Of a stretch of 64,000 bases of DNA, positions 3,277 through 61,951 are shown in pieces. Position 1 is the stretch's first letter. Each line of letters begins with the position of its first letter. The notes beneath the pieces were generated by a model. It was not told where the DNA came from. It was given only the letters and a program-made list of their open reading frames with translations, and did no database searches. The translations under genes and the position numbers were made by a program. Origin of the DNA: Limnanthes douglasii subsp. nivea (lineage: Eukaryota > Streptophyta > Magnoliopsida > Brassicales > Limnanthaceae); assembly GCA_036936605.1 (NCBI GenBank), contig JAUPFV010000003.1, forward strand, positions 152,056,997 through 152,120,996, read 5' to 3'.

Positions 3277-5499
3277 ATGTATATTGCTTCTTGGAATGTG
3301 TGAGGTCTTAATGATCCCATTAGGAAAAAAAATGTTACCGATTTCATAATTAGTAATAATATTTCATTTTTAATTTAAGTCTAAACAAAAGCCCAACTTT
3401 TTAAAGTCGACTCTATTATTAGGTATATAGTTCCTTTCTGGCATGTTATTACCAACCACTCGTCTCATCCCCTAGGAAGAATTTGGATCACCTGAAATCC
3501 TAGTGTAATCACCATTACTATAATTTCCCAATCCCCCTAGTCCATCAATTGTATGGCTAGATGTCACAATTACAGTGCTATCTACGCCTCGTTCAAACTC
3601 ACTGCTATCTACGCCTCGTTCAAACTCACTGCTATCTACGCCTCGTTCAAACTCACTGCTATCTACGCCTTTAATGATGTCCAGGACCGTATCCCCCTTC
3701 GGAATGATCTCATTAAAATCTCCATCGAAGATAACCACATCCCCTGGGTTTCCCTTGGAGATTATAACGCGATTCGTCACACGGAGGAGCGTCTTGGCTC
3801 CTCCGATTCTTGGACCTCTTCCATTGATGATTTCAATATCTGCTGCTACTAATGTGATCTCACTGACCTTTGATCATCTGGTTTCCCATTCACCTGGATT
3901 AATAAGCAACCTGCCCACCCCATCCTTTCTAAAATTGATCGCGTCTTAGTTAACCCAGATTAGGATGATCTATTCCCTATGTCCAAGGTCCATATTGGGT
4001 ATCTTCGTACGTCTGATCACACTACTGTTACCCTCAATATTGGGCTTCCTAAACCTAGAAGGAAAAAACCTTTTCGTTATTTCAACATCTGGCAGTCTCA
4101 TCCCCAGTTTAAGGACATTGTTCTTAATAGTTGGAATCGCACTACTTTCTCTAGTGGTATGAGGATGGTCTCTGATAAACTAGTTCGGCTGCAATCTGAA
4201 TTAGCTTTGCTTAATCGCAAGGAGTTTAGTGACATTTCCTCCAGAGCCTTGGATGCTCAAAATTGCTTGTTCGAGGCTAAATATAACCTTGCCTCTGATC
4301 CCCTAAACCCTGATCTTGTATCTAAAGAAAAACAGGCTTCTGAGTCTTTTATTTTCTTAAGTCGAGCGGAAGAATCCTTTTTAAAACAAAATTCTAGAGA
4401 AACCTGGATTAAACTCGGTGACGGGAACAAAAAATTCTTTCACAACAGTATTAAACCCAGGCTTTTCCGCAACAAAATTATCTCGATTTCTAATGAGTTT
4501 GGGGCCACTATCTCTTCTCCGGCTCGTGTCTCCAAAGCTTTTGTAAACTTTTTTGAGAATTCTCTTGGTTCAAAGTATTCGACTATCTACCCTGGTCTTG
4601 AAAAGGTTTCCTCTCTGATTTCTGCAAAAGTCAATGCTGCTGATAAGGAATCAATGATCCGGGAGATATCCTATGCTGAACTTAAATTTGCCCTTTACAG
4701 TATTGACAGCGACTAGTCCTCTGGCCCCGATGGTTATAATTCCAGTTTTTTAAAGTCAAACTGGAATATTATGGCCTTAGATATCTGTAAGAGTGTCCAA
4801 GAGTTCTTTCTCACCGGAACCTTATTTGAACCATGGAATGCCACCTCTATCGCTCTTATCCTAAAAATTGATTCTCCTTCTCTGCCTGCTGACTTTAGAC
4901 CAATTGCCCTTTGCAATGTTGTCTACAAAATTATTTCCAAAATCCTGGCCAATATAATCAAAATCGCTTTCCCTTACCTTGTAGACTCTTCTCAATCATT
5001 GTTCGTTTCTTATCCCAAGAACTTCTTAAGGGATATAATAAAAATGGTAGAGGAAAAAGGGTTGTCCTTAAAATTGATATTATGAAGGCCGCCAATAATG
5101 TTCGCTGGCATCTCATTCTTGACATTTTAGTTGCGATGCATTTTCATGAGAAGATGATCACTTGGATCGTTAAGTGTTTTTCATCTCCCTCGTATTCCAT
5201 TATTATTAATGGAGACCTCCAGGGAAATTTCAAAGGCAAAAAAAGCCTCAGACAAGGTGATCCCCTCTATCCTCTTCTTTTCATGCTTGTTATGCAAGTG
5301 TTGTCTGGTCTGGTCCACAGTTCCCACTCTCTATAAAGAGGGCGGCCTTGGGATTCTAGATTTAAAAACCTGGAATCAAGTTGTCGTCCTTAAGCAACTT
5401 TGGTCAATAGTCACTAATAAGAATTATGGAAGTAATAGACAAAATAGAACAATAATAGACACCAGAGATGACGAGCGACGACTTGACAATATGAAATGA
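3277..5499 (+). pseudogene. L1-type LINE ORF2 relic (endonuclease plus reverse transcriptase), copy 1
   Basis: ORF2 begins MYIASWNV, followed by a stop and GLNDPIRKK, the usual start of a plant L1 apurinic-endonuclease domain. PWVSLGDYNAIRHTEERLG (about 3746-3802) is endonuclease motif material. From 3979, 245 residues lead into the reverse transcriptase: SSGPDGYN after a TAG stop at 4714, FRPIALCNVVYKIISKILA (about 4893-4950), then in another frame KIDIMKAANNVRW and LRQGDPLYPLLF (5248-5283). The YADD-containing part is missing: the frame jumps at about 5335 to GGLGILDLKTWN, which belongs to the zinc-ribbon region after the RT. The relic therefore has internal stops, at least one frameshift and a large 3' internal deletion, and it is not mobile. 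It lies in the duplicated segment; copy 2 has lost most of this body. Confidence 0.85.
3577..3669 (+). repeat. 27-bp tandem repeat, about 3.4 copies, inside the LINE
   Basis: The unit GCTATCTACGCCTCGTTCAA plus ACTCACT occurs at 3577, 3604 and 3631, with a partial fourth. Copy 2 of the duplication has only a single diverged unit at the same place, so the expansion followed (or contraction affected) only one copy. The unit is a multiple of three and does not break the frame. Confidence 0.9.
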
Positions 5500-19560: not shown

Positions 19561-20110
19561 ATAGATAATCTTAACGTTTTGTTATGTTTAGTGTTGATAC
19601 TTTATATGTCTTCGTGCTCTAAACGTAGAGGTAACCAGGCCTATCCAGCAAGAAGCATCGTGCTTTGATGGATAAAGAACAAATGATATTATATCAAGCA
19701 TATACGAGGCCGCATCTTAATGTTTCAAAAAGAACATTTCCATGCGGACCTAATAGGGGTCACAATACCCATCAACCAACCGCGTATCTTACTGTTTCAA
19801 AAAAAATAGTTCCAGGCGTACCTAATAAGAGTCACAACACCCATCCACCAACAGTGCATCTTACAGTTTCATAGATAAAAGTTCCAAAAGTTACAAATAA
19901 AAGTCACAATACCCATCCACCAATAGCGAATCTTATTATTTCAAAAAGAATAGTATCAGGCAGACCCATTAAAAGTCACAATACACATCAACCAACTGTC
20001 AATCTTACTATTTCAAAAAGAACAGTTCACAGGCGGACCTAATAAGATTCACAATACCCATCCACCAATAGTGTATTTTAGTTTGTGTTCAGAAAGAAGT
20101 AGTTCCAGGC
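19561..20110 (+). pseudogene. Decayed CLE/IDA-like peptide polyprotein gene, inverted copy
   Basis: The frame begins with ATA in place of the ATG used by paralogues (IDNLNVLLCLVLILYMSS, the signal-peptide region), then shifts by one base near 19650 before MDKEQMILYQAYTRPHLNVS. The 24-residue units that follow are diverged: RTFPCGPNRGHN, KIVPGVPNKSHN, then a TAG stop at 19873, IKVPKVTNKSHN, RIVSGRPIKSHN, RTVHRRT and a last broken unit near 20085. Start loss, frameshift and stop make it a pseudogene. It is the most diverged member seen and is on the opposite strand from the six genes at 44-56 kb, so it is either the remains of an ancestral locus or an old inverted duplicate. Confidence 0.85.
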
Positions 20111-35633: not shown

Positions 35634-38034
35634 TTAGAACGGAGCATCACATGACCTCCTATTATGCCCCGATTTGAAACATCGACCACAACGGGACTGG
35701 CTGCTGGAAACTTCACCTCTTGATGGAATACGCTTTTTCCTCGGACGCCCAGGTCGTCTTTTAACGTTCGGGGGCATCACCACGGGCTCTCCATCATAAT
35801 CTGAAGTACTGGATTCACCAAACTCTGTTATAGCTGGTATGTTAAATGAATAGCTGGACCGGTAATTCGCAGCACTGAAAAACGGCTCAACCAACGTCAT
35901 AGGATCCTCGTTTAGAGATGCAATTGCATCCAATGCATGAGCGCATGGGAAACATTCTTGCTGCCAAGATTCGCATGTGCATTTGAAATCAAGTATGTTT
36001 ACGACCATGACTCGGTCTGACAAAACCTCAAAATAGGCGACAGAAGACTTGCAAACTAACCATGTCCGACTGCACTGTACATTATCTTTGAACATCTTGT
36101 CAAACTCGAGGCACAAATGTGTGTTCTAACTTAGGCCCTCTCCTAAACGTCGAGACATTTGAGTCATCAGAAGAGCTCTAATCCGGTCGACCAATTCAAC
36201 TATAGGCAGATGGCACAACTTTTTAATCTGGGAATTGAACGATTCAACAACGGTTGATGCCATCGCCCCGTACCGTTTGCCTTTGACATATGCCTGGGCC
36301 CATTTTTCTGGTGGCAGATTTCTTACAAAGTTGCCAATACGCTCACCGCCTTGGCGCAAAAACTGACCATAACGTTCATTAAAAAGTTCCACCGTCGGGG
36401 CATAAGCACAACTCTTAAACATCACTAGTATATTTTGTTTGTAGACTCTGTTAGTATGTTCAAGAGCTTTACTCAAGTTCTGGATAAGATGGAAGATGCA
36501 ATAAGCGTGGTAGTCAGTAGGATAAAGAGTTGCGACAGCGCTAATAATACCAGCATGGCGGTCTGAAATGAAAATTATTTGGCGCCCTAACAGATGAGGT
36601 TTTAAACTTTCCAAAAACCAAAACCAGTTATCCGAGTCTTCACTACCAAATATACCAAAAGCTACGGGGAAGAGACCTGAAACGGAAACGATAAAGTTGA
36701 AAACAGCACTACATCGACAGGGGTAACGGACCCAAATAACAATGTATATTAACATATCTATTAGACTAAGGAAATCCTGTGTAATAATCAACGTAGCACA
36801 TTATAAAATGCATAAATGGCAATGTCACATAACTAAGCTATCAATCATAAATAACTAAAACAGCACGGTATGTAACCTAATCTATTAATCAGTGCAAGAA
36901 AATCGCAATCTATGTGAACCTATCTAGCGGACTAAACGTATATTGAAACAATGGACTGGCCGTTGTTTCCATATTTTGCCACTGCTGAAAGCAACACGCC
37001 ACCATGCTTCCCTGTTAGGTGGGTTCCGTCAACGTACAGTAGAGGGCGGCAGGAATGGAAACCCTGAAGACACGCCCCAAACGCTATAAAACAGCGACGG
37101 AAAACATTGTCGGGAGCCAAATCCAAATGGTAGTCCGTAGTAATGTCACGACTTTAGAGTCTCTTGAAGTATGCTTTTAGCAATCCGAAAGAGGTATTGC
37201 TATCTCCAAATACAACACGACGGGCCTTCTCCAACGCATTCCAAGATAGACGATATGAAATGTCTAAACCGTAGTCTTGCTTGATGGTGGACTGTATAGT
37301 CTTAGCTGTTACGGATTGGCAGTTCCGTAGAGAGTCGTGAATTTCATCAGCAATCAAATCGGAGGACAGATGCCCGCTTTTCTTCTTTGTGAATACGGGA
37401 CTGCACGTATGGGTACTGAAAAATTCTTTTAATTGTCATCAAACCGGTCTTAGAATCAACAGAAGCATAAAGCCTCCATTTGCAGCCGCCCGAATCTTTG
37501 TTTACACAATAAACGGTGATCTTGCTAAAGGTATTGTGCATGTACCTAAACACAAAACCGTTCTCTAATGCATACCGGGATAAGGATAACCTCAGACCTT
37601 GAGCCAACACCGATGATAGCTTCTGCCCATCCAGTTGTAGCTAGATGCCTTTTTTGGGGGGTTAAAATGGCCAAACAGCTACTGCTTTCACCGCTAGTTC
37701 GTTGCATATGAGAGGATTCTTCGAACAGTTGAACAGGTTGTTTACGTTTAATGGCGGAGCCTTTATCAACAACATGTTCTTCGATAGGAAAACTAACACT
37801 CTTCAGACGCTCAACATCAAGGTAACATTCCAACCCAATAAAATCGGTCTCCTTATTAAACATACAATTATTCTGAGAACCGCAAGACTATGTAATGCTG
37901 TAGTTGCCTCGAACAAGCCCTTGCCATGTCTCCTCAACGTACTGTTGAAAAGACTCGTAGTTTTCGAATTCGGACAGCGGAACAATAGCTATTTCCGTCC
38001 CAAATTTGAAAATGCAAACTTTTGGTTTCGACAT
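35634..38034 (-). pseudogene. MULE transposase (VANA-like / MuDR family), decayed
   Basis: The minus-strand start at 38034 reads MSKPKVCIFKFGTEIAIV. A TAG stop follows at codon 49 (37890-37888), after which the same frame continues. Next come the MuDR-type block ENGFVFRYMHNTFSKITVYC, NKDSGGCKWRLYA, then GLDISYRLSWNALEKARRVV, and a TAA at 37156. The MULE core shows GFHSCRPLLYVDGTHLTGKH (first Asp) and IIFISDRHAGII (second Asp). A SWIM zinc finger CTCESWQQECFPCAHALDAI lies at about 36000-35925 and a C-terminal zinc knuckle CGRCFKSGHNRRSC ends at about 35640. Frameshifts are visible near 37590 and 37365, and one intron (about 36677-36955) interrupts the core. I did not place the third acidic residue. 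It is inactive in this copy. Confidence 0.85.
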
Positions 38035-44813: not shown

Positions 44814-45525
44814 CTAACTAAGATGCGATGTTCGTGGATGGGTATTGTGACTCTTATTAGATCCGCCTTGAACTGTTCTTTTTGAAACAGTAAGATGCGC
44901 GGTTGGTGGATGAGTGTTGTGACCCTTATTGCGTCCTCCTAGAACTGTTCTTTTTGAAGCAGTAAGATGCGCTGTTGGTGGATGGGTGTTGTGACTCTTA
45001 TCAGGTCCCCCTGGAACTGTTCTTTTTGAAACAGTAAGATGCGCGGTTGGTGGATGAGTGTTGTGACCCTTATTGGGTCCTCCTGGAACTGTTCTTTTTG
45101 AAACAGTAAGATTCGCTGTTTGTGGATGGGTATTGTGACTCTTATCAGGTCCGCCTGGAACTGTTCTTTTTGAAAACAGTAAGATGCGCGGTTGGTGGAT
45201 GAGTGTTGTGACCCTTATTGGGTCCTCCTGAAACTGTTCTTTTTGACACAGAAAGATGCGCTTTTGGTGGATGGGTGTTGTGACTCTTATCAGGTCCGCC
45301 TGGAACTATTCTTTTTGAAACAGTAAGATGCGTGGTTGGTAAATGATTGTTGTGACCCTTATTAGGTCCTCCTCGAACTGTTCTTTTTGAAACAGTAAGA
45401 TGCGGCCTCGTATATGCTTGAGATAATATCATTTTTGCTTTATCCATCAAAGCATGATGCTTCTTTGTTGGATACGCCTGGATACCTCTACTCCTACAGC
45501 ACCAAGACACATAAAGTATCAGCAT
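44814..45525 (-). pseudogene. CLE/IDA-like peptide polyprotein gene 1 (8 units, frameshifted)
   Basis: The likely start is the ATG at 45525: MLILYVSWCCRSRGIQAYPT. Its upstream part is not the signal-peptide sequence of the paralogues but the intergenic module, so the 5' end was replaced by rearrangement at codon 1. Eight 24-residue units follow. Their 12-residue cores are RTVRGGPNKGHN, RIVPGGPDKSHN, RTVSGGPNKGHN, then after a one-base insertion near 45176 (TTTTC for TTTC) RTVPGGPDKSHN, RTVPGGPNKGHN, RTVPGGPDKSHN, RTVLGGRNKGHN and RTVQGGSNKSHN. The last ends HLS and stop. The linker THPPTAHLTVSK ends in a basic SKR site before each core. Family role: secreted peptide hormone precursor. The frameshift separates units 1-3 from 4-8. 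Confidence 0.8.
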
Positions 45526-46098: not shown

Positions 46099-46479
46099 CT
46101 AACTAAGATGCGCTGTTGGTGGATGGGTATTGTGACTCTTATCAGATCCGCCTTGAACTGTTCTTTTTGAAACAGTAAGATGCGCGGTTGGTGGATGAGT
46201 GTTGTGATCCTTATTGGGTCCTCCTGGAACTGTTATTTTTTAAACAGTAAGATGCGCGGTTAGTGGATGAGTGTTATGACCCTTATTGGGTTCTCCTGGA
46301 ACTGTTCTTTTTGAAACTGTAAGATGCGGCCTCGTATATGCTTGAGATAATATCATTTTTGCTTTATCCATCAAAGCATGATGCTTCTTTGTTGGATACG
46401 CCTGGATACCTCTACTCTGACAGAACCAAGACACAGAAAGTATCAGCACTAAACATAACAAAAGGTTAAGATTATCCAT
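46099..46479 (-). pseudogene. CLE/IDA-like peptide polyprotein gene 2 (3 units, stop after the first)
   Basis: The start at 46479 gives an intact signal peptide, MDNLNLLLCLVLILSVSW then FCQSRGIQA, followed by the spacer YPTKKHHALMDKAKMILSQA. Unit 1 is RTVPGEPNKGHN. The next linker ends LTV and TAA where paralogues have TCA (Ser), near 46240. Beyond it are ITVPGGPNKDHN and RTVQGGSDKSHN with the usual HLS end. As it stands the gene could still make a 79-residue single-motif precursor, which is the normal length and layout of a one-domain CLE gene, so it may not be dead. Confidence 0.75.
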
Positions 46480-47810: not shown

Positions 47811-48030
47811 TTTTTTTTTCGGAAGGAACCCGCAGCCGCTACTCAAAGTGCAATGAGTGCGCACAGGGTAAACCCTCAGTCTGACGCGATAGCCTGCAAA
47901 CCAACGCCAGAAGGTAAACCACACAAGGTGACAGGCTCAGCCGAGAAAGCGTATGTAGAGGGACTTGAACTCATGACCTTTTGGTTATTAGAATGCCATA
48001 CTCAACCAACTCGGCTACCCCCTTGAGGGC
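47811..48030 (-). mobile_element. tRNA-derived SINE, copy in unit I
   Basis: On the minus strand the 220-bp element starts near AGGGGGTAGCCGAGTTGGTT. It has an A-box-like TAGCCGAGTTGG, a B-box-like GAGTTCAAGTCCC, a G/C-rich body and an A9 tail (plus-strand T9 at 47811-47819). Target duplications of 12-15 bp, TTCTCGTATCAC(TTT), flank it at 47799-47813 and 48031-48045. Empty sites are seen at 44290 and, inverted, near 18180. Open frames through it on either strand are not genes. Confidence 0.9.
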
Positions 48031-48208: not shown

Positions 48209-49065
48209 TTTGTTTAATAGTTATCTTTTAAATTAAAACACACTTCCGCGTTTTACTAATACCATTTACCACTTATTGTGTTCGTGATCATTCTAAACCT
48301 GGTTTAGGTTTATATGGAAAGCATTTGTATTCTTTTTAAATAAATAAATAATGTATTTTTAATTTAAACTTGTAAACTTTAAATACTTTATTAATTATTT
48401 ATAAATTAAGTGAGTATAAAATTTAACTCCTAATTTTATACTCATCTATAGAATTATTACTTTTTGCAAACATGTAAATGGGGCAAAAAGTAATAAATTT
48501 GTAAACTTTAAATACTTCACTTACTTTTAATTATTTGTAAATTAAGTTAGTATAAATTTGAATTCCTAGTTTTTTACTCATTTATGGAATTATTATTTTT
48601 TTCCGATAGGTAAATGGGACAAAAATAATTAAATTGTATATTTTAATATTTAGGTTTTGGGATAATTAAGTTTTTTATATATTATTTAAATTGTTTATTC
48701 ATGTATATTTTTTAAAATTATTTTTCTATGTATATGTTTTGTAACAATTAAAGTATATATTTTAATATTTACTTTTGTGATTATTAAGTTATTTGATATT
48801 TTTTAAAATTCGTATATGTTTTAAATCATTTGTCTTTGTATATTTTTTGATCGGGTGCAAAATTACAAGGATGAGAATTATGAATCAGAAACCATTAAAT
48901 CTTCGCATTATTCATTAAAAATTTAGAATAAAATTAAAAATAAATAAAAAAGCATATATTTAATCCATGATTATATAGATTAATATGTGTACAGTGACGT
49001 CCGTTGTCCGTTATTGAGGATCTTGTCGTTAATTGGATGCGCTTGGAACTGCTGCTTTCTAAACA
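48204..49065. other. Intergenic sequence 3' of gene 3
   Basis: AT-rich. 48230-48445 is the inverted relative of the flank repeat at 15640-15890. No gene seen. The 3' flank of the peptide gene contains a decayed extra unit (GAAAGCAGCAGTTCCAAGCG on the minus strand, about 49037-49056). Confidence 0.6.
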
Positions 49066-49661
49066 CTAACTAAGATGCGCTGTTGGTGGATGGGTATTGT
49101 GACTCTTATCAGATCCGCCTGGAACTGTTCTTTTTGAAACAGTAAGATGCGCAGTTGCTGGATGAGTGTTGTGATCCTTATTGGGTCCTCCTGGAACTGT
49201 TCTTTTTGAAGCAGTAAGATGCGCTGTTGGTGGATGGGTGTTGTGACTCTTATCAGATCCTCCTGGAACTGTTCTTTTTGAAACAGTAAGATGCGCGGTT
49301 GGTGGATGAGTGTTGTGACCCTTATTGGGTCCTCCTGGAACTGTTCTTTTTGAAACAGTGAGATTCGATGTTGGTGGATGGTATTGTGACTCATATCAGG
49401 TCCGCCTGGAACTGTTCTTTTTGAAACAGAAAGATGCGCGGTTGGTGGATGAGTGCTGTGACTCTTATTGGGTCCTCCTGGAACTGTTCTTTTTGAAACA
49501 GTAAGATGCGGCCTCGTATATGCTTGAGATAATATCATTTTTGCTTTATCCATCAAAGCATGATGCTTCTTTGTTGGATACGCCTAGATACCTCTACTCT
49601 GACAACACGAAGACCCAGAAAGTATGAGCACTAAACATAACCAAAGGTTAAGATTATCCAT
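49066..49661 (-). pseudogene. CLE/IDA-like peptide polyprotein gene 3 (6 units, early stop and frameshift)
   Basis: The start at 49661 gives MDNLNLWLCLVLILSGSS then CCQSRGI and a TAG in place of the Gln codon, right after the signal peptide. The frame after the stop gives MDKAKMILSQAYTRPHLTVS, then RTVPGGPNKSHS and RTVPGGPDMSHN. A one-base loss near 49379 shifts the frame. In the original phase four more cores follow: RTVPGGPNKGHN, RTVPGGSDKSHN, RTVPGGPNKDHN and RTVPGGSDKSHN, ending HLS. Gene 6 has the same two lesions, so they predate the unit duplication. Confidence 0.8.
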
Positions 49662-51316: not shown

Positions 51317-52025
51317 CTAACTAAGATGCGCTGTTCGTGGATGGGTATTGTGACTCTTATTAGATCCGCCTGGAACTGTTCTTTTTGAAACAGTAAGATG
51401 CGCGGTTGGTGGATGAATGTTGTGACCCTTATTGGGTCCTCCTGGAACTATTCTTTTTGAAACAGTAAGATGCGCTGTTGGTGGATGGGTGTTGTGACTC
51501 TTATCAGGTCCGCCTGGAACTGTTCTTTTTGAAACAGTAAGATGCGCGGTTGGTGGATGAGTATTGTGACCCTTATTGGGTCCTCCTGGAACTATTCTTT
51601 TTGAAACAGTAAGATTCGCTGTTTGTGGATGGGTATTGTGACTCTTATCAGGGCCGCCTGGAACTTCTTTTTGAAACAGTAAGATGCGCGGTTGGTGGAT
51701 GAGTGTTGTGACCCTTATTGGGTCCTCCTGAAACTGTTCTTTTTGACACAGAAACATGCGCTGTTGGTGGATGGGTGTTGTGACTCTTATCAGGTCCGCC
51801 TGGAACTATTCTTTTTGAAACAGTAAGATGCGCGGTTGGTGGATGATTGTTGTGACCCTTATTAGGTCCTCCTCGAACTGTTCTTTTTGAAACAGTAAGA
51901 TGGGGCGTCGTATATGCTTGAGATAATATCATTTTTGCTTTATCCATCAAAGCATGATGCTTCTTTGTTGGATACGCCTGGATACCTCTACTTCTACAGC
52001 ACCAAGACACATAAAGTATCAGCAT
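51317..52025 (-). pseudogene. CLE/IDA-like peptide polyprotein gene 4 (8 units, frameshifted)
   Basis: Counterpart of gene 1, with the same replaced 5' end: ATG at 52025, MLILYVSWCCRSRGIQAYPT. Cores in order: RTVRGGPNKGHN, RIVPGGPDKSHN, RTVSGGPNKGHN, then loss of two bases near 51664 that removes the RT of the next unit, VPGGPDKSHN, RIVPGGPNKGHN, RTVPGGPDKSHN, RIVPGGPNKGHN and RTVPGGSNKSHN, ending HLS. The frameshift is close to that of gene 1 but is a different mutation, so the two genes were hit independently. Units 5-8 keep the consensus better than their counterparts in gene 1. Confidence 0.8.
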
Positions 52026-52598: not shown

Positions 52599-53051
52599 CT
52601 AACTAAGATGCGCTGTTGGTGGATGGGTATTGTGACTCTTATCAGATCCGCTTGGAACTGTTCTTTTTGAAACAGTAAGATGCGCGGTTGGTGGATGAGT
52701 GTTGTGATCCTTATTGGGTCCTCCTGGAACTGTTCTTTTTGAAGCAGTAAGATGCGCTGTTGGTGGATGGGTGTTGTGACTCTTATCAGGTCCTCCTGGA
52801 ACTGTTCTTTTTGAAACAGTAAGATGCGCGGTTAGTGGATGAGTGTTGTGACCCTTATTGGGTCCTCCTGGAACTGTTCTTTTTGAAACAGTAAGATGCG
52901 GCCTCGTATATGCTTGAGATAATATCATTTTTGCTTTATCCATCAAAGCATGATGCTTCTTTGTTGGATACGCCTGGATACCTATACTCTGACAGCACCA
53001 AGACACAGAAAGTATCAGCACTAAACATAACAAAAGGTTAAGATTATCCAT
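52599..53051 (-). CDS. Intact CLE/IDA-like peptide polyprotein precursor (4 repeats)
   Basis: 150 residues, single exon, no lesion. The signal peptide is MDNLNLLLCLVLILSVSW then CCQSIGIQA (about 27 residues; hydrophobic core 5-18). A 30-residue spacer follows (YPTKKHHALMDKAKMILSQA then YTRPHLTVSK). Four 24-residue units come next. Their cores are RTVPGGPNKGHN, RTVPGGPDKSHN, RTVPGGPNKDHN and RTVPSGSDKSHN, joined by THPPTAHLTVSK-like linkers, ending THPPTAHLS. Compared with the CLE consensus (R.VP.GP[DN]P.H[HN]) the cores keep Arg1, Val3, Pro4, Gly6, Pro7, Asp/Asn8, His11 and Asn12, but have Lys-Gly or Lys-Ser where CLEs have Pro-Leu. The K.HN end recalls IDA/IDL peptides. SKR before each core would suit protease release. 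Expected product: secreted extracellular signalling peptides for an LRR receptor kinase. Receptor and activity are unknown. Confidence 0.85.
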   Translation of the reverse strand: MDNLNLLLCLVLILSVSWCCQSIGIQAYPTKKHHALMDKAKMILSQAYTRPHLTVSKRTVPGGPNKGHNTHPLTAHLTVSKRTVPGGPDKSHNTHPPTAHLTASKRTVPGGPNKDHNTHPPTAHLTVSKRTVPSGSDKSHNTHPPTAHLS

Positions 53052-53105: not shown

Positions 53106-53118
53106 TGTTATATTTATA
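53106..53118 (-). promoter_or_regulatory. TATA box of the intact peptide gene
   Basis: CTATAAATATAAC on the minus strand about 55 bp upstream of the ATG at 53051. It is conserved with gene 2. Confidence 0.6.
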
Positions 53119-53119
53119 G

Positions 53120-53785: not shown

Positions 53786-54005
53786 TTTTTTTTTCGGAAG
53801 GAACCCGCAGCCGCTACTCAAAGTGCAATGAGTGCGCACAGGGTAAACCCTCAGTCTGACGCGATAGCCTGCAAACCAACGCCAGAAGGTAAACCACACA
53901 AGGTGACAGGCTCAGCCGAGAAAGCGTATGTAGAGGGACTTGAACTCATGACCTTTTGGTTATTAGAATGCCATACTCAACCAACTCGGCTACCCCCTTG
54001 AGGGC
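53786..54005 (-). mobile_element. tRNA-derived SINE, copy in unit II
   Basis: Same element, tail and target duplications as at 47811-48030; I see no difference by eye. It was copied with the tandem unit and is not a second insertion. Confidence 0.9.
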
Positions 54006-54205: not shown

Positions 54206-55062
54206 TTTGTTTAATAGTTATCTTTTAAATTAAAACACACTTCCGCGTTTTACTAATACCATTTACCACTTATTGTGTTCGTGATCATTCTAAACCTGGT
54301 TTAGGTTTATATGGAAAGCATTTGTATTCTTTTTAAATAAATAAATAATGTATTTTTAATTTAAACTTGTAAACTTTAAATACTTTATTAATTATTTATA
54401 AATTAAGTGAGTATAAAATTTAACTCCTAATTTTATACTCATCTATAGAATTATTACTTTTTGCAAACATGTAAATGGGGCAAAAAGTAATAAATTTGTA
54501 AACTTTAAATACTTCACTTACTTTTAATTATTTGTAAATTAAGTTAGTATAAATTTGAATTCCTAGTTTTTTACTCATTTATGGAATTATTATTTTTTTC
54601 CGATAGGTAAAAGGGACAAAAATAATTAAATTGTATATTTTAATATTTAGGTTTTGGGATAATTAAGTTTTTTATATATTATTTAAATTGTTTATTCATG
54701 TATATTTTTTAAAATTATTTTTCTATGTATATGTTTTGTAACAATTAAAGTATATATTTTAATATTTACTTTTGTGATTATTAAGTTATTTGATATTTTT
54801 TAAAATTCGTATATTTTTTAAATCATTTGTCTTTGTATATTTTTTGATCGGGTGCAAAATTACAAGGATGAGAATTATGAATCAGAAACCATTAAATCTT
54901 CGCATTATTCATTAAAAATTTAGAATAAAATTAAAAATAAATAAAAAAGCATATATTTAATCCATGATTATATAGATTAATATGTGTACAGTGACGTCCG
55001 TTGTCCGTTATTGAGGATCTTGTCGTTAATTGGATGCGCTTGGAACTGCTGCTTTCTAAACA
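54201..55062. other. Intergenic sequence 3' of gene 6
   Basis: Copy of 48204-49065. Confidence 0.6.
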
Positions 55063-55658
55063 CTAACTAAGATGCGCTGTTGGTGGATGGGTATTGTGAC
55101 TCTTATCAGATCCGCCTGGAACTGTTCTTTTTGAAACAGTAAGATGCGCAGTTGGTGGATGAGTGTTGTGATCCTTATTGGGTCCTCCTGGAACTGTTCT
55201 TTTTGAAGCAGTAAGATGCGCTGTTGGTGGATGGGTGTTGTGACTCTTATCAGATCCTCCTGGAACTGTTCTTTTTGAAACAGTAAGATGCGCGGTTGGT
55301 GGATGAGTGTTGTGACCCTTATTGGGTCCTCCTGGAACTGTTCTTTTTGAAACAGTAAGATTTGATGTTGGTGGATGGTATTGTGACTCATATCAGGTCC
55401 GCCTGGAACTGTTCTTTTTGAAACAGAAAGATGCGCGGTTGGTGGATGAGTGCTGTGACTCTTATTGGGTCCTCCTGGAACTGTTCTTTTTGAAACAGTA
55501 AGATGCGGCCTCGAATATGCTTGAGATAATATCATTTTTGCTTTATCCATCAAAGCATGATGCTTCTTTGTTGGATACGCCTAGATACCTCTACTCTGAC
55601 AACACGAAGACCCAGAAAGTATGAGCACTAAACATAACCAAAGGTTAAGATTATCCAT
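55063..55658 (-). pseudogene. CLE/IDA-like peptide polyprotein gene 6 (6 units, early stop and frameshift)
   Basis: Near-identical to gene 3: start at 55658, TAG after the signal peptide, frameshift after the second core (near 55377). Small differences are visible: AYSRPHLTVS for AYTRPHLTVS, and one linker that restores HPPTAH. The long frameshifted frame after the lesion stays open because the 72-bp unit is a multiple of three. Confidence 0.8.
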
Positions 55659-57273: not shown

Positions 57274-57789
57274 TGTTGGCGGAAAATATAAAAATAACAC
57301 TCTCTTTAAAACAAACAAACAACTTTGATATAGATAGAAAAGGAGAAATATTACAAAACACTCTTACAACTCACACTAGAAGAGAAAATATTTTTCTAAC
57401 ACTCAAGAGAGCATTCTTGTCTCTCTTTTCTCTCACTCTAATTTTCTCTCTAACTTTGATTCTTGGTGTGTTTGTGTGATCCTCTGGATGGTGGGAGAGC
57501 TCCACTATTTATAGGAATATAGTGGAGACAAAGATCCACCATCCAAGAGGCTTTTGGATACTAACACACTCAACATCAATACTACACTCAAAGTTAAGGT
57601 GTTTCTTACACTCAATCTAAAGGTGTGTCTTGCACTCAACCTAAAGAAGGTCTTACACACAATCTCCACTACTAAATAAATATTAATTTATTTTGTTCTA
57701 GAATACACTTTCTAGATGGGCCTTATTAAGTGGGTTGGACCCTTTAAGTGGGTTGGGCCCTTTAAGTGGATCAAGTTTATGATCCAACA
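57274..57789 (-). repeat. 3' LTR of the Copia element
   Basis: 516 bp. It holds the family's TATA-like CTATAAATAG (about 57508-57517, minus strand) and polyadenylation-region sequence. The pol frame's last codons run into it. Confidence 0.9.
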
Positions 57790-60080
57790 CTCCCCCTTAA
57801 ACTTGATCCCGTGACCCCTAGTAGTTTCCTTAACCGTTTGAAGTCTTCGCTTTTCAGTGGCTTGGTGAAAATATCAGCAGCTTTTTTTTGCGTCTTCACA
57901 TATTCAACTTGCACATCCTTTCTTGAAATACACTCCCTTATGTAGTGGTAGCGGACATCTATATGCTTGCTTCGATCATGGAATACTGGATTCTTGGCTA
58001 AGGCGATTGCTGACTTATTATCGACATAGACCTTAGGTGGCTCATGTTGTGTTAGGTCTATCTCCTTCAATAGATTTCTAAGCCAAATTGCATGACTAAC
58101 ACAGGTAGTGGCAGCAACATATTCTGCCTCACAAGTGGATAATGTGACTATCGGTTGTTTCTTTGACATCCATGTGAAAGCAATGTTTCCCATGAAGAAT
58201 ACAAATCCAGTAGTACTCCTTCGATTGTCTATGTCTCCACCCCAATCACTATCGCTATACCCAACAACTTTATAATCATTAGAAATGGAATAGAGTAATC
58301 CAAAGTCGATTGTACCGTTCAGATAACGAAGGATTCTCTTTGCAGCCTTGAAATGAGTTGTTGTTGGAGATTCCATATAGCGACTAACCAATCCAACTGC
58401 ATGAAGAATATCTGGTCTCGTACAAGTTAGATAGCGTAGGCTACCCACCAAACTTTTGAATAATGTTGGATCTACACTTTCTCCTTCTTCATGCTTGGAT
58501 ATTTTGACTCCAAACTCCATAGGTGTGCTTATCGAGCTACAATTATCCATGTTAAACTTCTTGAGGATATCTTTTGCATAGCTTTCTTGTGAGATGAAAA
58601 TTCCATCTTTTTGCTGCTTAACTTCAATGCCAAGGTAGTACGCCATGAGCCCCAAGTCTGTCATCTCGAATTCCTTTGTCATCACTTCTTTGAATTTATT
58701 AAACATGTTTGGGTTGCTTCCAGTGAAGATCAAATCATCCACGTAGAGACACACAATCAAAATATCTCCATCTTTGATCTTGGTGTATAGAGCGTGCTCG
58801 TACGGACATTTGTTGAAGCCATTCTCTTGGAAATACTTTTCGATTCTACTGTTCCATGCCCTTGGTGCTTGTTTTAGCCCGTAAAGAGCCTTCTTTAGCT
58901 TCAACACCCTGTCTTCGTGTCCTTTGACCTCATAGCCTAATGGTTGTTGAATGTAGACTTCTTCTTCAAGGATGCCATTTAGAAATGCTGACTTTACATC
59001 CATTTGTTGTATCTTCCACTTGTTTTGAGATGCCAAAGAAATTATTAGTCTAATAGTTTCCAATCGGGCAACGGGGGCGAATACCTCATCATAGTCAATT
59101 CCGGCCTTTTGACTATAGCCTTTTGCAACAAGCCTCGCTTTGTGTTTTTCAATCTCCCCCTTAGCATTTCTCTTGGTTTTGTATAACCATCTGACGCCTA
59201 TTGTCTTGCACCCTTTGGGAAGTGAGGTGAGTTCCCATGTGTCATTCTTCTCGATGGCTCTAATATCTTCATCCATCGCGTCTCTCCATTGTTTCTCTTG
59301 TGCAGCTTCTTGAAATGTCACTGGCTCACAATCAGCAAAGAGACAAAATAGTGTAATGTTATCCAGTGGTTCGGTTACCTCATAAATATCACTAAGGCTT
59401 CTTGTACGTTCCACTGCTCTCTCATTTTGACTACCATTTGACGATGATGAAGGTGGCGAGTCTCCATGAGTGGTTGATGTTGGTGAGGCATGTTGGGTAG
59501 CAACATATTCTGATTGCTCATTTGGTGTCTTCTCATCTTCTTCAATTTGGGGGAAAAATGTGAACTCATTTGTATGAGACCCAAAATTCCATTCGCCTTC
59601 TTCATCAACTATCACGTCTCGGCTTATCACAACCTTCTTGTTGTTTGGGTTGTATAACTTGTAGCCTTTGGAACTTGAATCGTAACCGATGAAGATAAAA
59701 CTTTTACTTTTATCATCGAGTTTGGTTCGTTGTTCGTCTGGTACATGGACATGAGCTACACTTCCAAATACTCTCAAGTGGGAAATTCCTGGCTTTCTTC
59801 CACTCCACGCTTCTTGTGGTGTCTTTCCCCAAACACTTCTTGTTGGAGATCGGTTGGACAAGTAAACCGCACATGCCACTGCTTCCGCCCAAAAATCCTT
59901 AGGCAGTTTCTTACTTTTGAGCATGCTTCGCGCCATATCAAGGATTGTTCTGTTCTTCCTTTCTGCCACACCATTTTGTTGAGGTGATCTAGGAACTGTC
60001 AAGCGGCGACGAATTCCATGTGCTTCACAAAACTCTAGGAGTTCATTGGATGTGAACTCCCCTCCTCGGTCAGATCTCAT
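57777..60080 (-). CDS. Copia polyprotein, second part: integrase C-side, reverse transcriptase, RNase H
   Basis: An open frame of 767 codons. It starts within integrase ([15 protein letters not shown], then [14 protein letters not shown] with the catalytic Glu region). The reverse transcriptase contains [29 protein letters not shown] and the active-site [11 protein letters not shown]. RNase H shows [14 protein letters not shown] and [20 protein letters not shown]. The frame is full length and free of stops to its end in the LTR. It is one phase off the first part, at a run of nine A on the minus strand (about 60104-60112), so the polyprotein cannot be made in one piece unless ribosomes shift there. 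Lineage is Tnt1-like by motif style. Confidence 0.9.
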
Positions 60081-61870
60081 GGCTTTAATCTTATTTCCGC
60101 TCTTTTTTTTTCCAAAACTGCTTTGAACTTCTTAAATACTCCAAAGACTTCAGATTTCTGTTTCAAGAAGTATACCCACGTTTTTCTTGAAAAATCATCG
60201 ATAAAGAGAAGGAAGTAGTTACTTTTACCTAGAGAGCTCGGCTTGATTGGACCACACACATCGGTATGAATAAGCTCGAGAGGTTTATTGGCTCTTGACT
60301 CTGAATCGTTTGGAAAACTTTTTCTGAATTGCTTTCCAAGTAAACATCCTTCGCATAACTGGTCAGGATGATTGATACACGGTAACCCTCTCACCATTTC
60401 CTTCTTTGACAATAACTCTAAACTTGAAAAGTTTAGATGCCCAAATCGAACATGCCATAGCCACGACGAATCTTTGTAACACGCCTTAAGACACTTTGCA
60501 ACATCATTTTGAATATTCAAAGGAAACATTCTATTCTTTGACATTTGAACTTTAACAATTAAATCCCCTTTTGCATCTCTCATAAAAAGACTATAATTTT
60601 TCATATGAATATCATAGCCTTTTTCTAGAAGGTGTCCCAAGCTTAAGATGTTGTTTTTCATGCTAGGTACGTAATAAACATTTGAGATCATTTGGTGACT
60701 ACCATCTTTTGCACGAATAAGAATGTTACCTTTTCCTTTCACCGATATTTTGCTATCATCTCCAAAAGAGACATTTCCACTCACGGCTTCATTGATCTCT
60801 ACAAACATGCTTCTTTTCCCACACATATGATTGCTTGCACCGGTGTCAAGATACCAAGTGTTTTCTTGGCCTTCATTAGTGGTTTTGTATGTTAGTAGTA
60901 ACATATCTTTCTCCTCCGTCTTCTCTTCCACATAGTTGGCCTTCTCCTCAACTCTATTGTTGGGGCCTCTACATTCTGAAGCATAATGTCCAAATTTTTG
61001 ACATCTATAGCATTGGATTTGAGATTTATCATACCTCGAGTTCGGATTTCGTCTTCCACGACCTCGTGTTGAGCTTTCTCGTTTCTCGTAGTTGTAGTTG
61101 GAATTATTGTTGTTGTAATTCCAACCACGTCCACGTCCATGATAACCACCTCGTCCGCGGCCTCTACCTCTTCCTCGGCGACGTTGGTTTCTATCATCGT
61201 CTTGACTTGCATGCATGTCCTTGAGTTCTAATTTGAGGAGTTTCTCGGTGATCTCTTGCTTCTTCTTGTGCTTTTCTTCGTAGGCTTGTAATGATCCTTG
61301 GAGTTCTTCAATCATCATCTTCTCCAAGTCTTTAGTTTCCTCAATCGTCACGACGATGTGCTCAAATTTAGGATCCAACGAGCGGAGTATTTTTTCGATT
61401 ACTCTCACATCTTCTAACTTCTCACCATTTCTTTTTAATTGATTAGAAACGGTTGCTACTCTTGAGAAATATTCCGATATAGATTCGGACGCTTTCATAT
61501 GTAAGGATTCAAATTCACCTCTTAATGTTTGGAGACGTACCTTTTTCACCTTTTCGACTCCTTTGTAAGAGATTTGTAATTTCTCCCACACTTGCTTGGC
61601 GGAAGATGCGCTTGAAATTTTTTCGAAGCCATCATCATCTAATGCTTGATAGATGAGGAAGAGAGCTTTTTTGTCTCTCTTTCTTGAATCCTTCAACGTT
61701 GTTTTCTCCTCTTGAGCAAGATTTGCTTCATCTTCGGGTTCGTCAAAACCTTTTTCGACGACATCCCACACATCATGTGCTCCAAGAAGAGCTTTCATCT
61801 TGATACTCCAATTGTCGTTGTTATTGTTGTTGAGTGTTGGAACTTGGAAGGATGATACACCATTTTCCAT
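60077..61870 (-). CDS. Copia polyprotein, first part: Gag, protease, integrase N-side
   Basis: 597 codons from the ATG at 61870 ([20 protein letters not shown]). Gag has the UBN2-type region ([16 protein letters not shown]), an Arg/Gly-rich stretch and a zinc knuckle [14 protein letters not shown]. The protease active site is [13 protein letters not shown]. The integrase zinc domain is WHVRFGHLN...CEGCLLGKQ, followed by [10 protein letters not shown] with the first catalytic Asp. The frame ends prematurely a few codons after an A9 tract in integrase. In relatives the frame runs straight on into the second part. Confidence 0.9.
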
Positions 61871-61951
61871 ATTTTTAAATATGTTGAATATTTAAAAACA
61901 AAATTTCCAATATGTTGAAAATTTAAAAACAAAATTTTGGAAAGAGCTTGT

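Follow-up and report, generated by a model that had tools for sequence, protein, structure and literature searches.

The window, by which we mean the whole stretch of 64,000 nucleotides analysed here, carries on its minus strand an open, intronless frame encoding 150 amino acids, with its ATG at 53051 and a stop codon that ends at 52599 (Table 1). The preliminary description of this DNA had placed a precursor gene at exactly these coordinates, leaving the strand, which is minus, unstated. The protein opens with a hydrophobic stretch, MDNLNLLLCLVLILSVSWCC, whose mean Kyte–Doolittle value of 3.05 across 12 residues predicts a signal peptide on the basis of hydropathy alone. This is followed by a spacer of ~33 residues containing TKKHHALMDKAKMILSQA and then by four units in which the tripeptide SKR recurs at residues 56, 80, 104 and 128, an exact 24-residue spacing, the arginine of each SKR being residue 1 of a core. 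The spacer, the four 24-residue units and the SKR at each core had all been described earlier and are all found again in the 150-aa frame.

Cores 1–3 fit the R-x-V-P-x-G-P-[DN] front, while core 4 has serine at position 7. All four have lysine at position 9 and HN at positions 11–12, and position 10 is Gly or Ser except in one unit, where it is Asp. The two core types originally listed are matched by two of the four cores, the other two being variants, and the reported Lys-Gly or Lys-Ser at positions 9–10 holds for the lysine throughout but not for the unit with Asp10. HN is followed by THPP, or by THPL after core 1, and no unit, the last included, has a basic site on the C-terminal side of its core.

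Table 1. The 150-aa gene, its component parts and the related loci in the window
Feature	Position	Strand	Remarks
Multi-CLE precursor gene, intact, 150 aa	52599..53051	-	Open, intronless frame
Predicted signal peptide, ~residues 1–22	52986..53051	-	From hydropathy
Spacer (variable domain)	52887..52985	-	TKKHHALMDKA..ILSQA motif common to sister arrays
Core 1 RTVPGGPNKGHN	52845..52880	-	
Core 2 RTVPGGPDKSHN	52773..52808	-	
Core 3 RTVPGGPNKDHN	52701..52736	-	
Core 4 RTVPSGSDKSHN	52629..52664	-	
TATA-box-like CTATAAATA	53111..53119	-	Start 68 nt 5' of ATG; same in intact copies
Related locus, broken	51317..52025	-	Units split across two frames
Related locus, broken	55056..55550	-	Two frames
Related locus, broken	49059..49553	-	Two frames
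Related locus, broken	46099..46479	-	In-frame stop between units
Related locus, broken	44814..45525	-	Two frames
Diverged inverted locus, not intact	19668..20042	+	Cores e.g. RTFPCGPNRGHN

The window also holds Copia-type retrotransposon frames (gag, integrase and reverse transcriptase; 57777–61891, minus strand), flanked at 57.6 and 62.3 kb by tandem-repeat stretches with the same consensus units, like an LTR pair, and a Mutator-like (MULE) transposase fragment (36126–36800, minus strand). Similar open-frame blocks at ~7.9–12.4 kb and 28.4–33.4 kb (plus strand), offset by ~20.6 kb, suggest a segmental duplication. A stretch with tRNA-like A and B boxes occurs twice in identical form (47962–48017 and 53937–53992, minus strand) and probably belongs to a SINE of tRNA origin that was duplicated along with the array of family loci; ARAGORN identified no tRNA in the window and Rfam, at gathering scores, returned nothing there. 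In addition, a secreted protein of the CAP/PR-1 type is represented by a fragment (PF00188; 21535–21819, plus strand), and a 27-nt tandem repeat within an open frame (3472–3873, minus strand) encodes SEFERGVDS.

Seven loci of the precursor family lie in the window. That at 53051→52599 is the sole intact one among them, where we call a locus intact if MDNLN and the final AHLS lie at the two ends of a single frame. When the assembly was searched at the DNA level, at least 86 matches were obtained (40 of 65 candidates scored), all of them between 151.74 and 152.56 Mb on the 334-Mb contig C223. The finding is thus larger than first noted: an array, not a single gene. We read 152.057–152.310 Mb (253 kb) continuously except for four bases and counted 269 core-like 12-mers, allowing four mismatches at most. 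The minus strand carries 252 of these, and the most frequent cores are RTVPGGPDKSHN (100), RTVPGGPNKGHN (75) and RTVPGGSDKSHN (28). Within these 253 kb there are 43 loci, 20 intact, 16 not intact on the same strand and seven not intact on the opposite strand, with the repeats most often spaced 2.6–3.3 kb apart. Two loci counted as not intact (152190729 and 152265612) are open but have different ends, at least one further open copy lies beyond the 253 kb, at 151769381–151770268, and a diverged branch whose proteins start with MVNFN has 153-residue frames open at three places.

The intact genes contain one unit (five genes), four (two), eight (four), nine (two), ten (three) or 11 (four), encode 13 distinct proteins between them and differ in length only by whole 24-residue units. 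At 78 aa the one-unit genes have the classical single-CLE layout, while the longer genes combine two core types in recurring orders, for example ABBBABBBAAB in four genes. Of the two main types, one has N8 together with G10 and the other D8 together with S10. The TATA-like CTATAAATA has an identical sequence and lies at an identical distance from the ATG in 20 of 20 intact copies, and in 18 of the 20 the 1.5 kb of upstream DNA is 97.8–100% identical (median 99.1%), indicating that expansion or homogenisation of the array is recent. Several copies also have the 72-nt repeat open in a second frame, and for this reason we rejected an open frame by itself as proof of a gene.

Evidence on the identity of the family comes from elsewhere in the same genome. 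A protein search gave at least 161 matches (150 of 317 candidates scored) and revealed diverged relatives in two other arrays. Among the matches listed, E-values range from 1.9e-27 to 2.1e-24 in the 178-Mb array (C223, 177.90–180.05 Mb) and from 1.8e-20 to 6.4e-19 at the 246-Mb places (C112, 245.9–246.45 Mb), with at least 22 and at least 28 gene starts, respectively. The units of the 178-Mb genes examined read SKR[LV]VPSGPNPQ[QE]SPDSP, the first unit having Gln9, and those of the 246-Mb array read SKRLVPSGPNPSHPTLPDMISN. At least 15 and at least four additional gene starts among the matches listed fall on the small contigs C520 and C216; these genes are of the 246-Mb type and the contigs may represent unplaced or alternative parts of the 246-Mb array. 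The same type is further represented by five dispersed loci on C1, C112 and C223, of which the one at 90.35 Mb on C223 has a degraded appearance.

The sister arrays and dispersed copies have the N-terminal region and the SKR-spaced repeats in common with the window array: when the window protein is aligned with a 178-Mb sister by BLASTP, 63 of 148 aligned positions are identical (43%), signal peptide and spacer included. Since the sister units, SKR[LV]VPSGPNPQ[QE]S and SKRLVPSGPNPSHP, also SKRVVPSGPNPQQS, are near textbook CLE and follow this shared N-terminal region, we take the window gene to be CLE by descent, which upholds the earlier CLE assignment. Judged by its sequence, it is a member of a multi-CLE prohormone family, a kind of gene already known. 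The arrays differ at the end of the core. Proline remains at position 9 in the consensus of the sisters, R[LV]VPSGPNPQ[QE]S and RLVPSGPNPSHP, whereas the window array has Lys9; the sister cores end in QQS/QES or in SHP, which retains the His, whereas the window cores end in HN.

Relatives in many flowering plants are reached through the sister arrays. Database searches gave no match to the window protein at E ≤ 1e-3 (2,069 candidates) and none to five single-unit forms at E ≤ 10 (2 candidates). With a profile built on six aligned rows drawn from the three arrays, two of them from the window array, 57 proteins were recovered at E ≤ 10 when 7,990 candidates were scored. The best match is from Cinchona (3.8e-23), others are from Sesamum, Craigia, Heracleum and Euphorbia, and the named sources are mainly dicots; compared directly with Cinchona P0003, the window protein gives an E-value of 1e-7 in that single comparison. 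Homology searches can therefore miss a branch of this family, queries from the window array having found nothing where the profile that included the sister arrays succeeded. The core pattern occurs at least twice in 40 of the 57 relatives, once in 14 and not at all in three, so that the preliminary description was right to say that some plants have multi-CLE precursors, a statement that can be widened. Four of the 42 relatives examined out of 57, from pear (P0028), apricot (P0042), Sesbania (P0023) and Vanilla (P0031), have RLVPSGPNxx-type cores together with cores ending in PLHH or PLHN, and P0028 and P0037 have array-like cores beside RQVPTGPNPLHH- or RKVPDAPNPLHN-type cores within one precursor. 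The occurrence of both kinds of core in one precursor ties the type to canonical CLE. The precomputed Pfam accession PF27922.1 is attached to 26 of the 57 relatives, one of them a mango sequence annotated as CLE10-like (P0053). With the window protein as query, neither Pfam nor PDB sequences gave a credible match, nor did Pfam with the one-unit form, for which PF27922.1 was not reported; a legume test with Nodulin_late (PF07127) gave no match, and the controls were likewise without one.

In three proteins, P0055 (Buddleja), P0059 (Dillenia) and P0056 (a jgi source, on a 23.6-kb contig), an IDA-like stretch and a CLE-type core share one frame. The stretches, SGPNKQHN, SGPSKQHN and SAPSRRHN, lie 16, 17 and 13 residues, respectively, from the CLE-type core, which reads RLVPSGPNPLHN, or RLVPSGANPLFS in P0059. 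The remainder of the frame resembles a gene-model chimera in P0055 and P0059; a natural precursor combining IDA and CLE is possible in these three cases.

How far the window cores themselves resemble CLE peptides was assessed with three profiles, made from the 12 distinct motifs printed in Table 2 of PMC2254619 (A), from 65 cores of database proteins cut by a pattern that already requires VP.G[PS][ND] (B) and from 27 Arabidopsis peptides (C). The window cores score 20.8–23.1, 12.2–22.7 and 23.4–27.6 bits with A, B and C, while the maxima among 54,533 stop-free background 12-mers, taken from the six frames of the window with the family loci masked, are 9.7, 2.5 and 9.1 bits; none of the 54,533 reaches any window core with any of the profiles. 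The profile comparison proposed in the preliminary description thus went in favour of CLE for all four cores. In leave-one-out scoring, 0 of 12 members of A, 0–3 of 65 members of B and 1–5 of 27 members of C score below the window cores, the cost to which comes largely from positions 9 and 10.

Pro9 is present in all 12 distinct cores of Table 2 of PMC2254619, in the available text of that paper, and Lys stands in its place in all four window cores. The other CLE characteristics given in the same text are a length of 60–120 aa, a motif within the last third and a basic pI; the predicted pI of the window protein, 10.1, agrees with the last of these, its 150 aa and repeated motif do not agree with the other two, as is also the case for other multi-CLE proteins, and the 78-aa copies agree in length. 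Across 124 cores of the 57 database relatives, position 9 is Pro in 76, Arg in 15, Asn in nine, Gln in eight, Gly in five, Ala in four, His in four and Ser in three, and Lys is absent. AtCLE43 has Arg9. Because position 9 varies among the relatives and Lys is never one of the variants, the change to Lys9 seems to go one step beyond a relaxation of this position that the multi-CLE branch had already undergone.

Other families of signalling peptide were considered and rejected. The IDA/IDL signature, S[GAV]PS followed by [RK][RK]HN in the accessible part of PMC4526919, fails in nine core types and in the whole window protein. The K.HN end is alike, but the window cores lack the SGPS core and the Arg/Lys before HN, and the precursor differs. 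What had been proposed as one option, a CLE/IDA intermediate, is thus a matter of resemblance, with precursor kinship lying with CLE. By the signatures in the same source, PIP/PIPL membership is contradicted by the lack of both SGPS and a C-terminal GxGH from the window protein, and CEP membership by the lack of a C-terminal SPG[IV]GH.

We consider it probable that the gene encodes a four-unit precursor of a tandemly amplified multi-CLE branch, predicted to be secreted, cut at SKR and to provide signalling peptides of CLE type. The repeat anatomy, the array, the intact copies of 1–11 units and a common origin with R[LV]VPSGPNP-type precursors are matters of observation, and the repeat anatomy and intact frame support the original view that an intact precursor of several CLE-type peptides, with basic sites, is encoded here. 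Secretion is predicted from hydropathy alone, and cleavage would take place N-terminal to, or at, the basic SKR site. As there is no basic site C-terminal of the cores, C-terminal trimming could leave either a 12-mer ending in HN or a ~16-mer that includes THPP. Each precursor would in this way release several CLE-type peptides of ~12–16 residues, presumably with hydroxylated prolines, and these would signal via CLE-type LRR receptor kinases. Gene number multiplied by unit number would raise the dose of N8/G10 and D8/S10 peptides, both coming from the same precursor; signal amplification has been proposed as a use of multi-CLE genes in the available text of PMC2254619. Compared with Pro9 CLEs, Lys9 with Gly/Ser10 would alter receptor preference or strength.

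The alternative that survives best, though we judge it unlikely, is that the array is a satellite-like relic, a CLE gene caught up in a ~3-kb tandem repeat and multiplied by unequal exchange, whose open frames are simply young and yield few or no functional peptides. That 23 of the 43 loci are not intact, that upstream DNA is near-identical and hence points to recent expansion or homogenisation, and that a second repeat frame is open in several copies, so that an open frame proves little, all speak for this explanation. Against it, the 20 intact copies retain start, spacer, SKR sites and TATA box, their lengths change by whole units only, and the diverged MVNFN branch is open too.

Patterns of substitution bear on the same question. 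For the units we counted distinct nonsynonymous and synonymous changes relative to the consensus, rather than events on a tree, and applied eight binomial tests, uncorrected for multiple testing. One count left out incomplete units, which made up 20 of 137 in the intact genes and 14 of 113 in the other loci; counts over all minus-strand units of the window array took in the 253 kb together with L029 and L031–L033, those for the 246-Mb type 11 loci with L057 excluded, and those for the 178-Mb array five loci. In the window array there is no signal of purifying selection: the 20 intact genes give a ratio of 8/4 and the minus-strand units as a whole 45/11, neither significantly different from the neutral 2.74, and such ratios near or above neutral are what a relic would be expected to give. 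The core of the 246-Mb type, in contrast to a relic, has 22 nonsynonymous to 19 synonymous changes against a neutral 2.44 (P 0.014, the lowest of the eight uncorrected tests), and that of the 178-Mb array lies in the same direction with few changes (3/3, P 0.22). Sister-array frames have also stayed open over deep divergence: dN/dS in the N-terminal part (67–70 codons, stop-containing codons skipped) is 0.22–0.33 between arrays in six pairs, with dS saturated, two further pairs being incalculable, while pairs within the window array range from 0.16 to >2 on few changes each. The dN/dS check proposed at the outset therefore came out mixed: low between arrays, with that saturation of dS, and without a purifying signal inside the array. 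Function is, on these sequence comparisons, reasonably supported for the family and no more than possible for this array.

A bolder version of the multi-CLE precursor reading is that the array sets dose and that its product is a hybrid ligand, in which a CLV3-like RTVPxGP front is joined to an IDA-like K-x-HN tail and which, in N8 and D8 versions coming from a single molecule, would address shifted or dual receptors. We regard this as doubtful; if true, a new class of ligand has arisen in one lineage. It is very improbable that a CLE precursor with an IDA-like end now acts as an IDA/HAESA-type ligand: the C-terminal K-x-H-N, the GPNK.HN also seen in the IDA-like stretch of Buddleja P0055 and the dependence of HAESA–SERK1 binding on Lys66/Arg67 and the C-terminal Asn69 of IDA would speak for it, but HAESA does not bind IDA extended past Asn69 and discriminates against CLV3 (available text of PMC4848090 for these binding properties), and here HN is followed by THPP with no basic end mark, no core has S[GAV]PS[RK][RK]HN, Gly, Ser or Asp takes the place of IDA Arg67 and the precursor is kin to CLE.

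In most CLE genes the precursor contains a single peptide. Multi-CLE genes have been published from rice, wheat, legumes, radish, B. napus and pennycress (accessible parts of PMC2254619, PMC4526924, PMC5570945 and PMC11172632). Legume MtCLE14, MtCLE22/26/27, LjCLE32/33/46/47 and GmCLE37a/b are, like the genes described here, multi-CLE prepropeptides, with 3–9 units, those of Medicago and Lotus having repeats of 24–35 residues and lengths of 116–347 aa; Medicago and Lotus are credited with four such genes each and soybean with two, compared with 20 intact genes in 253 kb here (available text of PMC5570945 and PMC4526924). In the Brassicaceae, RsCLEm1/2, with eight tandem CLE domains, and BnCLEm3, with five, likewise have a signal peptide and short spacers, and according to PMC11172632 a meristem role of CLEm has been reported in B. 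napus (Han 2020); for radish the available text of PMC11172632 gives two CLEm genes and reports no array, whereas the present family forms one. CLE75, CLE76, CLE30, CLE31 and CLE68 of rice, wheat and Medicago similarly have 2–6 regularly spaced cores, but every core printed for these five proteins from three species has Pro9 in the accessible text (PMC2254619), where the window cores have Lys9.

Multi-CLE genes are thus known, and it is such an array, with Lys for the usual Pro, that is unusual. Six core strings were found in no paper of an openly licensed library, in which we likewise found no large multi-CLE array and no Lys9 core, the available text of a pan-angiosperm study (PMC12661658) included. 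What is new here is the copy number and the derived core, in which Pro9 has been replaced by Lys and position 10 is Gly or Ser, Asp in one unit. Taken together, these results reveal three poly-peptide CLE arrays in one genome, each with a different core: two mostly retain Pro9 with an altered HN end, and the window array retains HN with Lys9. The genome therefore allows one to ask, as in a natural experiment, which parts of a CLE ligand tolerate change, how poly-ligand precursors are processed and whether hormone level is set by the dosage of genes and units.
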